The position numbers and the translations under genes were made by a program. Of a DNA stretch of 64,000 nt, positions 47,649 through 49,992 are shown one piece after another. The DNA lies in NCBI RefSeq assembly GCF_014610845.1, contig NZ_JABTCG010000001.1, positions 620,001 to 684,000 on the forward strand. The letters run 5' to 3'. The notes under the pieces were generated by a model that was not told where the DNA came from, ran no database searches, and worked only from the letters and a program-made list of their open reading frames with translations. This DNA is from Maribacter arenosus (GTDB lineage: Bacteria; Bacteroidota; Bacteroidia; Flavobacteriales; Flavobacteriaceae). How positions within the stretch are numbered: position 1 is the first letter of the stretch; each line of letters starts with the position of its first letter.

Positions 47649-48410
47649 CTAACTTTTACCTTGATTGAATTGACTTTTTAATTCCTCCATAGATTCTTGT
47701 AGTTGACGCAACAATCCTTTTTCAGTGGTTGCATCTACCCCAAAGGTTATCTTGCTGTTTACTTGCCATATTTCCTGTATCTGCTGCGGCTCAATTAAAT
47801 AAGGAGGATAGGTTTCATTCAGGGAGATTAAAGTGATGTGGTTTGAATTGGGCGCCTTTTCAATTTTTTTGACCAAAACAGCATCTTCCAATACAATGAC
47901 ATAGATTTTATTGGGATTAACATCGGCAATATCCTCCACCGCCTTGGCCAATACCCATTCCCCAGGTCTTAAATTGGGCAACATACTATCCCCCTCTACC
48001 TGAAAACCACGGTAGGTGGCATTCCTGAATTCAGGAAGGGGAAGGTCAAATGCAGGCAATTGCCTATACCAACTCGTATCCTGTATGTTCTGGGGATACC
48101 CCGCTGCCGCCTTGGCATTTACCAAGACCATATTCTCATTGTCCGAAGAATCCACCGTAACCACTTTAGGAATGACACTGGTTTTCGATGGTTCCAAATA
48201 CTGCATCTCGCTCTCGCCAAACAACCATAACGGGTTTATCTTGAATTGTTTCAAAAGTTCTGCAACCACCTTACCCGATAATTTGGTTCGCCCTCTTTCG
48301 ATATCAGCCGTAGTATTGCGGATACCCAAGACTTTTGCAAATTCCGCCTGCGTATAACCGAGATCCCGGCGCACGTCGACAAAACGCTTTAATGTAAGTT
48401 CATTTTCCAT
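47649..48410 (-). CDS. XRE/S24 repressor with LexA-type self-cleavage features
   Basis: A 253-residue regulator. Residues about 8-66 form a helix-turn-helix of the XRE type (VRRDLGYTQAEFAKVLGIRNTTADIERGRTKLSG). A linker leads to NAKAAAGYPQN, where Ala103-Gly104 matches the cleavage bond of LexA and UmuD. The S24 peptidase domain has Ser142 in FQVEGDSMLPNLRPGEWVLA and Lys181 in VLVKKIEK, the Ser-Lys dyad. It is therefore a probable DNA-damage-sensitive repressor, inactivated when RecA filaments promote self-cleavage. It is divergent from the small clamp-motif protein and TIGR03915 genes across 191 bases holding operator-like palindromes. Damage control is inference. Confidence 0.88.
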   Translation of the reverse strand: MENELTLKRFVDVRRDLGYTQAEFAKVLGIRNTTADIERGRTKLSGKVVAELLKQFKINPLWLFGESEMQYLEPSKTSVIPKVVTVDSSDNENMVLVNAKAAAGYPQNIQDTSWYRQLPAFDLPLPEFRNATYRGFQVEGDSMLPNLRPGEWVLAKAVEDIADVNPNKIYVIVLEDAVLVKKIEKAPNSNHITLISLNETYPPYLIEPQQIQEIWQVNSKITFGVDATTEKGLLRQLQESMEELKSQFNQGKS

Positions 48411-48423
48411 AATAATTGTCTGG

Positions 48424-48481
48424 TCGAGCGCAGTCGAGACCTATAATGTATACTATCTATCAACCTCTCGACTGCGCTCGA
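48424..48481. repeat. Inverted repeat, CTCGACTGCGCTCGA family, in the repressor leader
   Basis: TCGAGCGCAGTCGAGA (48424-48439) and TCTCGACTGCGCTCGA (48466-48481) are exact 16-bp inverted copies separated by 26 bases. The core CTCGACTGCGCTCGA is itself nearly palindromic and is a dispersed intergenic repeat in many Flavobacteriia. It lies between the predicted transcription start and the start codon of the XRE/S24 gene, so the mRNA leader would carry a strong stem. Confidence 0.75.
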
Positions 48482-48504
48482 GGGGACATTGAGCTTATAT
48501 GACC

Positions 48505-48534
48505 CAAAGATACATAATTTGGAATATATCCAAA
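48505..48534 (-). promoter_or_regulatory. Promoter of the XRE/S24 repressor gene
   Basis: On the minus strand TTTG (48534-48531) and TATCTTTG (48512-48505) are separated by 18 bases, an exact Bacteroidota promoter. The predicted transcript starts near 48498, giving a leader of almost 90 bases. The -33 box lies inside the first operator-like palindrome. Confidence 0.68.
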
Positions 48535-48594
48535 ATATTTATAGGAATATTTCCATATTTAGGATTTATTCCATATTTTTGGATTATATACCAA
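48518..48594. promoter_or_regulatory. Four operator-like palindromes between the divergent genes
   Basis: Site 1, TTTGGAATATATCCAAA (48518-48534); site 2, GGAATATTTCC (48544-48554); site 3, GGATTTATTCC (48562-48572); site 4, TTGGATTATATACCAA (48579-48594). All share GGA/TCC or TTGG/CCAA half-sites around an AT spacer, and their centres are 18 to 23 bases apart, about two helical turns. Site 1 covers the -33 box of the repressor promoter, and sites 3 and 4 flank and overlap the -7 box of the opposite promoter, as expected for autorepression and repression. Confidence 0.58.
48574..48581 (+). promoter_or_regulatory. -7 promoter element of the small protein/TIGR03915 operon
   Basis: TATTTTTG is an exact TAnnTTTG match, 20 bases before the ATG at 48602. 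Its last bases are shared with operator-like site 4. No TTG -33 box was found. Confidence 0.55.
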
Positions 48595-48601
48595 TATAAA
48601 A

Positions 48602-48787
48602 ATGACAAATACATTGCTTCAAGATAAACTAGGTTTTTACGCTATGGCTGGAACAATGGATGTCCAATCAGAAAATAAGATCGTCCATCCTATGACATCT
48701 TCAATGGAAACCCACCCTAGTGTAGAAATACACCGTAAAAACAAGAAGCGATTTGTAAAGAGGAGCGTTCAATTAAGTTTATTTTAA
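48602..48787 (+). CDS. Small protein ending in a sliding-clamp-binding motif
   Basis: A 61-residue protein I do not recognise. It is rich in polar residues, and the basic C-terminal third NKKRFVKRSVQLSLF ends exactly in QLSLF, the consensus bacterial beta-clamp-binding pentapeptide seen in translesion polymerases and other repair proteins. There is no signal peptide or membrane helix. The gene is first in an operon, 5 bases before the TIGR03915-type repair gene, and is controlled by the promoter region shared with the XRE/S24 repressor. The reading frame is supported by that position and by its promoter, but no homologue is known to me. A role in handing repair or polymerase partners to the clamp is inference. 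Confidence 0.62.
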   Translation: MTNTLLQDKLGFYAMAGTMDVQSENKIVHPMTSSMETHPSVEIHRKNKKRFVKRSVQLSLF

Positions 48788-48792
48788 AAATT

Positions 48793-49452
48793 ATGGAAAA
48801 TCCTAGGATATTAATTTATGATGGAAGTTTTAATGGTTTTCTTACCGCTATTCATATTGCACTAGGAAACGATATCGATGTTGTGGGTTTTAGAAAATAC
48901 AAACCCAATCAGGAAGGTCTCTTTATCGACAACATGATTATAACAACCCAGCAAAAGAAAGCAAAAAATGTTTGGACAGGTATAGAAAAGAAAAGTCACG
49001 TAGCGATTAGAAATATTTATTTTGCTTTTTTAAGCGAAACGGATGGTGTTGATTTTATGTTGTACCAACATATAAGGAAACTTTACTGTAGGCTTGATAG
49101 TGATGAAGTTGACCAAGCAGCTTTGATCGAAGCGAAAATCTCTAAATTGGCTTTGCAGGTAAATCGGGAGAAATCCTATATTGAGAATAACGTCGATTTT
49201 AAAACCACCAAAGATTCTCTATATATCGGCGAATTGGAACCTGGATTCAATATCCTGCCCCTAATATCCAGACATTTCAGACATAAATATCCGAAACACC
49301 CGTGGATTATCTATGATCGTAAACGTAAGTACGGTGTTTATTACAATGGGATATCACTGGAGCTAATCAACAAGGAGATCAAGGATAGCTATTTAAAGGC
49401 AAATATGGGGTCGAATCCCTATTCGGAAAATAACTATAGAATGGCTATGTAA
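48793..49452 (+). CDS. TIGR03915-type putative DNA repair protein
   Basis: A 219-residue protein of the family that is usually adjacent to a radical-SAM DNA-repair protein (TIGR03916) or fused to a uracil-DNA-glycosylase-like domain (UdgX). The family pattern is visible in ILIYDGSFNGFLTAIHIAL at the start, HVAIRNIYFAFLSE, RHFRHKYPKHPWIIYDRKRKYGVYY in the C-terminal third. Its biochemical activity is not established; I infer a DNA-processing role. Here the radical-SAM partner is not adjacent: a small clamp-motif protein precedes it and a convergent gene follows after 6 bases. Confidence 0.78.
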   Translation: MENPRILIYDGSFNGFLTAIHIALGNDIDVVGFRKYKPNQEGLFIDNMIITTQQKKAKNVWTGIEKKSHVAIRNIYFAFLSETDGVDFMLYQHIRKLYCRLDSDEVDQAALIEAKISKLALQVNREKSYIENNVDFKTTKDSLYIGELEPGFNILPLISRHFRHKYPKHPWIIYDRKRKYGVYYNGISLELINKEIKDSYLKANMGSNPYSENNYRMAM

Positions 49453-49458
49453 TTGTGC

Positions 49459-49992
49459 TTAGGACGATTTTGATCTTTCCCCAATGAATTGATCGCTCTT
49501 ATTTTGAAATAGGACATTAAAAGTGGTAAGACTGCCATAAATACGAGTAATATATTGCTGTAGGTCTACCTTTTCCTGATCATCCAGATTATTACTTGCA
49601 TTGATTTTTTGTTCCATGACCCGAATCCTGTCACGGACCATTACGATTTTATGAAAAAATGTATCTATGGGTATTTCCTTATCGGACAAATCACCTGCCC
49701 CAGGTTTCAGAACCAGTGAACCCCCTTTCCATTTGCTTGCGAGAGCAGTAGCATTATTGGTATCGCTCCAACGTCTTAAAATGGAAATCAAGGACAATTC
49801 AACGTCGGAAAAGCTTACAGTGTCCACTTCATCCGTAACAGCTTCGATAACCTCAAATTCCGAATCGATTTCAATGGTTTCTAAACCTCCTTCGATAAAT
49901 GTGACCCAATATTTGCTATGCGCAACGTTGGTGACGACGCCTTTGCCCAATTCCCGATGATCGATCCTTGAACCTATGCCTAATAATTTCAT
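49459..49992 (-). CDS. Protein with N-terminal Tudor-like domain, function unknown
   Basis: A 177-residue soluble protein. The first 45 residues, GIGSRIDHRELGKGVVTNVAH followed by KYWVTFIEGGLETIEID, resemble the Tudor/SH3-like domain at the C-terminus of UvrD/PcrA helicases (pattern G-x-R-V-x-H-x-x-x-G-x-G-x-V). The remainder is helical with VRDRIRVMEQKINASNNLDDQEKVDLQQYITRIYGSL near the end. It looks like a conserved Bacteroidota protein without an assigned role. It has an own promoter and is divergent from uvrA, which fits a nucleic-acid-related task but does not prove it. Confidence 0.7.
   Translation of the reverse strand: MKLLGIGSRIDHRELGKGVVTNVAHSKYWVTFIEGGLETIEIDSEFEVIEAVTDEVDTVSFSDVELSLISILRRWSDTNNATALASKWKGGSLVLKPGAGDLSDKEIPIDTFFHKIVMVRDRIRVMEQKINASNNLDDQEKVDLQQYITRIYGSLTTFNVLFQNKSDQFIGERSKSS

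Follow-up and report, generated by a model that had tools for sequence, protein, structure and literature searches.

The locus examined here raises the question of what a gene of the TIGR03915 family does in Maribacter arenosus when its usual operon partner, a radical-SAM protein of family TIGR03916 (hereafter rSAM), is missing and a gene for only 61 amino acids (hereafter mini) lies in its place. The window, meaning the whole stretch of DNA analysed, comprises 64,000 nucleotides (positions 620,001 to 684,000 of contig NZ_JABTCG010000001.1). An earlier note, made from the letters of the window, had described an XRE/S24 regulator with Ser142, Lys181 and an Ala-Gly bond, a divergent two-gene operon coding for a 61-residue protein ending in QLSLF and a TIGR03915 protein, and four palindromes over both promoters, and each of these observations is borne out below. 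Judged from its genes and sites, the locus is an SOS-type operon with a variant payload, in which TIGR03915 occurs without its radical-SAM partner and with a conserved protein of about 60 amino acids in the partner's slot.

The leftward gene (47649-48410, minus strand) codes for a repressor of 253 amino acids, in which HTH_3 (PF01381) and Peptidase_S24 (PF00717) domains both score above the Pfam cut-off and whose Ser142, Lys181 and Ala103-Gly104 are shared by all of 120 aligned relatives. The intergenic region contains three exact GGA-N5-TCC sites, operator 1 (GGAATATATCC, 48521-48531), operator 2 (GGAATATTTCC, 48544-48554) and operator 3 (GGATTTATTCC, 48562-48572), followed by a degenerate operator 4 with one mismatch (GGATTATATAC, 48581-48591), to which a like site at equal distance corresponds in many loci; the successive spacings are 23, 18 and 19. 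An operator core spaced by 22 or 23 and then 18 is retained in 85 of the 107 loci with a repressor more than 70% identical and enough flank, the remaining 22 comprising 20 with two or three sites and two with none in the scanned stretch, and shuffling the window by single bases 200 times produced no site pair at 18 bp. Among the 97 loci having the site pair at 18 bp, a TANNTTTG-type -7 element is located to the left of operator 1 in 95 and to the right of operator 3 in 96. In the window the probable -7 elements are TATCTTTG on the minus strand (48505-48512) for the repressor and TATTTTTG on the plus strand (48574-48581) for the rightward promoter, both labelled by what we take to be the -7 consensus. 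With -7 elements on either side of operators 1 to 3, both promoters are covered by the sites. An inverted repeat rich in GC (GGTCGAGCGCAGTCGAG ... CTCGACTGCGCTCGA) was also noticed by eye at 48420-48485, in the stretch that separates operator 1 from the start of the repressor gene, and similar sequence 5' of the repressor in two other loci (L153 and L168) gives it the appearance of a dispersed repeat.

Passages of a study on the non-canonical LexA of Bacteroidetes (PMC8565304) report a repressor with a CI-type HTH and S24 domain, an Ala-Gly bond, a Ser-Lys dyad and GGA-N5-TCC sites at its own promoter, features which are all found here; the Salegentibacter protein binds GGA-N5-TCC and its gene is induced by mitomycin C. 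According to the same passages, the regulon in Flavobacteriaceae includes dinB-dnaE, an SplB-like radical-SAM gene, a SRAP gene and an operon of two genes, COG1573-COG4277 (PMC8565304); on this class of repressor the earlier note is out of date. When the M. arenosus genome was scanned for tandem sites, a search that covers paired sites and which single sites escape, matches were obtained at the cassette, at three further upstream regions and at two positions inside open reading frames, and the reversed control gave none. The three upstream regions belong to dinB (followed by a 121-aa frame and then dnaE), a PA0069-type radical-SAM gene and a SRAP gene. The COG4277 member of the published operon is presumably TIGR03916. 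Tandem sites occur in ten of ten other genomes (42 on the forward strand), with control matches in none of the ten, and 20 loci fetched from these genomes comprise nine cassettes (six distinct), five PA0069 genes, three dinB genes, one of them with a SRAP gene alongside, one SRAP gene and two loci with none of these genes. Canonical lexA (TIGR00498) gave no match in the M. arenosus genome, the control giving matches in nine of 14 genomes. By its domains, residues and sites the repressor fits the published non-canonical LexA of the GGA-N5-TCC group, the predicted regulon of its genome matches the published one, and the locus is almost certainly under non-canonical LexA control. Both the repressor class and an operon of the rSAM/TIGR03915 type as its usual payload are thus already known. 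The DinB protein of the regulon bears QINLF, a clamp-type motif. The PA0069 proteins end in QMKLF, QLKLF or QMSLF at the very C-terminus in all five that were read (L240:4033-5106, L246, L247, L250 and L261), and the family is a second radical-SAM enzyme of the regulon with a probable clamp tail. At one further locus (L255 of genome G212) the PA0069 gene that follows the tandem operator is apparently split in two frames, by a break or a sequencing error.

A TIGR03915 match is encoded in 101 of 299 Flavobacteriaceae genomes. The loci compared were the window, 80 more of the 103 TIGR03915 match rows, seven further Maribacter loci and the best 80 of 196 named loci, which gave 149 loci once identical TIGR03915 proteins had been merged, two of them being reassigned to the rSAM class on inspection. 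The rSAM gene is present in 108 of these loci and missing in 41, of which 26 carry a mini of 55-75 amino acids in its slot and 15 carry neither, shares that are not frequencies since the named loci were chosen by similarity to the window's type; this absence and the small gene in its stead are new here. The usual layout, where both genes are seen, is XRE, operators, rSAM, TIGR03915 and often then uvrA, and the small frame in the mini loci likewise lies between the operators and TIGR03915. The rSAM type also occurs within Maribacter, in M. algarum and M. halichondriae. Genome-wide searches for TIGR03916 gave no match in the M. arenosus genome and none in the 21 rSAM-less genomes checked, and recovered it in three of three positive genomes. 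The earlier note, which was right about the regulator, the operon and the microprotein, had missed TIGR03916 as the usual TIGR03915 partner, and with it both the echo of the TIGR03916 ends in the small protein in its slot and the C-terminal shortening of TIGR03915.

The TIGR03915/DUF4130 protein of the window (48793-49452, plus strand) has 219 amino acids, whereas most rSAM-paired relatives have about 255-260, and is without the conserved C-terminal stretch of some 40 residues of the latter; its score of 125.2 bits exceeds the TIGR03915 cut-off (112.25) with profile positions 1-195 of 243 only. Searches of Pfam and NCBIfam matched DUF4130 and TIGR03915 and found no UDG domain in it. At a UvrA identity of 85-90%, the TIGR03915 proteins of two rSAM-paired loci share a median identity of 72.9% (637 pairs), those of two rSAM-less loci 44.2% (211 pairs) and those of loci from different classes 50.6% (790 pairs), although the higher divergence without rSAM may in part reflect how long ago the exchanged alleles diverged and not a faster rate. 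Residues conserved in at least 95% of 67 rSAM-paired rows are retained in the 41 rSAM-less rows to 87-88% in columns 1-100, 56% in columns 101-150, 75% in columns 151-200 and 24-32% in columns 201-260, and the window's protein retains none of those in columns 201-260. The YDGSFNGFL motif and residues E126, K127, D175 and R178 persist without rSAM. From this pattern we infer that the core of TIGR03915 is kept and that what was probably its rSAM-facing surface is lost. A structural model of the window's protein (48793-49449, pLDDT 88.5) yields weak Foldseek matches to DHH phosphoesterases (TM 0.48 or less), among them PAP phosphatase (E 2.4e-4) and RecJ (E 2.4e-3); by this likeness TIGR03915 may be a relative of the DHH type, perhaps an inactive one, and no solved structure related to it by sequence was found. 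Beyond it, a 177-aa gene on the minus strand (49459-49992), matching no NCBIfam or Pfam family, separates it from uvrA, which lies farther along the plus strand (TIGR00630, 1309.5 bits); a number of relatives have frames of 174-177 amino acids in the same orientation 3' of TIGR03915, paired with it by length and position only.

The mini gene itself (48602-48787, plus strand) has no NCBIfam match and one Pfam match far below the cut-off; at 61 amino acids and without a radical-SAM core, its product is not a member of TIGR03916. The protein is predicted to consist of an N-terminal helix (residues 3-23 of a low-confidence model with nothing further; pLDDT 64.4, pTM 0.26), a basic linker and the C-terminal QLSLF, and the linkers of the minis have a median net charge of +6 (range 0 to 11). 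Lengths of 59-62 amino acids are found in 21 of the 26 loci, and all 26 frames end between seven bases before and three bases after the called TIGR03915 start. Of 397 Flavobacteriaceae genomes, 20 match a profile of mini, each a single time; 14 of these copies are in the model and six are new, the latter without exception in a locus that also has XRE and TIGR03915, and no copy away from these two genes was found by this search. The profile matched none of seven empty-type and none of five rSAM-type genomes, and gave one match each in 15 mini genomes, all of them in the model. The pN/pS pooled over six hand-chosen pairs is 0.44 (p 8e-7), with 0.22 for the N-terminus (p 8e-6), 0.60 for the linker (p 0.008) and 0.26 for the last eight residues (p 0.054), the p values being approximate because one locus (L115) is in two of the pairs; purifying selection is thus clearest at the N-terminus. 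The medians over all pairs are 0.54 for mini, 0.32 for TIGR03915 and 0.09 for the repressor in Maribacter, and 0.38, 0.16 and 0.05, respectively, in Arenibacter, mini being the least constrained of the three genes. One of the six new copies (G160, L284) is also the sole case, among 80 scanned rSAM loci, of such a frame with a clamp-type end, so that mini, an intact rSAM (660.9 bits) and TIGR03915 occur there in a row, which argues that mini is an independent gene and not only a deletion scar. The small frame, whose possible lack of conservation or selection the earlier note had itself raised against its reading, is therefore conserved in 26 of 149 loci and in six more copies and is under selection, and there can be very little doubt that mini is a real gene.

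The C-terminal ends of mini and rSAM are alike. Measured against the beta-clamp consensus Q-aliphatic-x-[L/M]-[F/L], as worded in a passage of PMC13254535, a motif within the last 20 residues is present in 107 of 107 rSAM proteins longer than 380 amino acids, 106 times as QLxLF, and in 25 of the 26 minis. L042, which ends in QFTLFD, departs from the consensus, and so does one of the new copies (G568), which ends in QPSLFD. Among 3929 other open reading frame ends of the fetched loci Q[LF]xLF occurs twice, one of the two being a further mini copy. Across Bacteroidota, where TIGR03916 exceeds the cut-off in 59 of 198 genomes, the tails of the 30 best-scoring loci fit the pattern in 20 cases, the other ten reading QLVLPG[L/I]F (seven), QL[S/T]LL (two) and QMLLPGLHA (one). 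QLxLF and QLVLPG[L/I]F thus appear as the main TIGR03916 ends in these loci (L201-L230), as if they were two forms of one clamp tail. By its conserved motif, mini probably binds DnaN. In calling the repressor of the damage type, the small protein a clamp-motif microprotein and the operon associated with repair, the earlier note is judged right.

A mechanism can be proposed from these elements. In the undamaged cell, repressor dimers on the four operators would cover both -7 elements; RecA filaments would trigger self-cleavage of the repressor at Ala103-Gly104, and both transcripts would rise. Mini would then bind the beta clamp (DnaN) through QLSLF at its C-terminus, as the absent rSAM probably does with its own tail, and its N-terminal helix, resembling the N-terminus of rSAM, would dock a partner, most likely the TIGR03915 protein encoded by the next gene, which would in this way still reach clamp-marked DNA although the radical-SAM catalyst is gone. 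That mini is an SOS-induced clamp adaptor which took over the recruitment role of rSAM is, in our estimation, an evenly balanced proposition, and the narrower suggestion that it tethers TIGR03915 is put forward a little more tentatively. Several points stand against an adaptor: the coexistence of mini with an intact rSAM in G160 makes it no simple replacement, the 15 of 149 loci with neither gene keep TIGR03915 without mini, and selection on the C-terminus taken alone reaches only p 0.054; the off-consensus ends of L042 and G568, the low confidence of the mini model, the low hhalign probability and the four minis that fail or are weak in the N-terminal register described below also count against it. 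Mini might instead be a free-standing clamp ligand, occupying DnaN pockets and slowing or re-routing polymerases after damage independently of TIGR03915. The clamp motif is the one recognisable functional feature of this tiny protein, the rSAM next to it in G160 has a clamp motif of its own, and other regulon members bear such motifs (QINLF in DinB, the very end of all five PA0069 proteins read). The clearest selection, however, falls on the N-terminal 20 residues, implying a second contact, and the profile detects no mini apart from XRE and TIGR03915; a free ligand is regarded as unlikely.

The adaptor reading also draws on the N-terminus. Scored in a fixed register against the N-terminus of rSAM, 22 of the 26 minis fall in the top 0.8% of 2591 open reading frame N-termini; L073 is weak and L037, L056 and L070 fail, probably owing to shifted starts. 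For 15 chosen minis the register at the rSAM N-terminus scores highest among 402 windows (7.92, against 0.85 for the runner-up and a mean of -15.9 with sd 5.2), and hhalign places residue 1 on residue 1 (P 6e-4), but with a low probability of 28.5%. It is likely that the N-terminus of mini descends from or mimics TIGR03916. That mini is unrelated to rSAM and acquired a like helix and clamp tail by convergence would accord with the modest and short N-terminal similarity, the low hhalign probability and the presence of both genes side by side in G160; the top register of 402 is, however, exactly the rSAM start, and the two share gene slot and C-terminal motif, which leaves convergence improbable. 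That mini is what decay has left of an rSAM gene after its deletion, retained temporarily through translation coupling to TIGR03915, would explain the two rSAM ends, the slot and the 26 of 26 frames that end at the TIGR03915 start, but is already disfavoured and highly improbable given the purifying selection, the near-constant length and persistence across genera, the intact rSAM in G160 and the 15 loci without any such frame.

The history of the alleles was followed on a tree of XRE and UvrA, which retains 75 of the 149 loci (46 of 108 with rSAM, 19 of 26 with mini and 10 of 15 empty), the others having been left out because a flank was absent or too short or the repressor was below 70% identity. 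Mini changes eight times on this tree, at least six of them by well supported branches, and a single origin is rejected by the AU test both for mini (p 0.0003) and for the loss of rSAM (p 0.001). Four empty alleles, picked after inspection of the TIGR03915 tree, form one clade in that tree, a grouping which is rejected by XRE and UvrA together (p 4e-6), by XRE (3e-4) and by UvrA alone (0.03). This grouping against the flanks shows that exchange of alleles between repressor and uvrA, both of them conserved, is also at work, and changes on the tree therefore give no count of losses. The TIGR03915 tree over the 75 loci has many long branches that meet, and no weight is put on where it joins distant minis. 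Two simpler histories were set aside: mini as a plain in-place deletion product of rSAM is hard to square with the presence of both genes in G160, and independent loss of rSAM in every scattered lineage does not take account of the exchange between flanks. A fuller reading, possible though speculative on this comparative evidence, is that an SOS enzyme has been pared, in circulating alleles of one locus, to a partner-docking helix, a basic linker and a clamp tail, a minimal adaptor that would keep TIGR03915 at the fork without the catalyst, with full, mini and empty payloads swapped between a constant repressor and uvrA.

Among known systems, the sites at dinB-dnaE, the SplB-like radical-SAM gene, the SRAP gene and the two-gene operon ally the locus with the non-canonical LexA regulon, but the COG4277 member of that operon is absent here and a microprotein is present; no small protein appears in the passages of PMC8565304 concerned, nor does the word 'clamp' in its main text. 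The earlier note had taken the trio for undescribed, which stands for the small protein; passages of PMC8565304 already contain the repressor class, the motif, the mitomycin C induction and the two-gene operon. No description of mini was found among the matches listed in open-licence PMC literature for COG4277/COG1573, radical-SAM clamp motifs and small SOS clamp proteins, and neither TIGR03915/TIGR03916 biochemistry nor the name TIGR03915 was found there. The locus resembles the TIGR03916 (rSAM_link_UDG) and TIGR03915 (SAM_7_link_chp) pair in the TIGR03915 partner, the operon position and the TIGR03916 ends echoed in mini; it differs in that the genome is without TIGR03916 and TIGR03915 is shortened, diverged and without a UDG domain. 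The PA0069 family (NF033668) shares with mini the predicted regulon and a clamp-type motif at the very end, but is a full-length enzyme encoded elsewhere in the genome, outside the operon. A precedent for a non-catalytic, clamp-acting repair protein is ImuB, which a passage of PMC11791113 describes as catalytically inactive and predicted to act via the beta clamp in the mutasome; ImuB is, however, a Y-family polymerase homologue, whereas mini consists of helix, linker and tail only.

The tail motif of rSAM, common to mini and the PA0069 protein, offers a testable handle, since it makes the sliding clamp the probable place of action of these enzymes. Alleles without rSAM separate the solo role of TIGR03915 from its rSAM-dependent one and single out residues as possible contacts to rSAM. 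An adaptor of about 60 amino acids that outlives its enzyme would, if true, show clearly that recruitment can persist after catalysis is lost.
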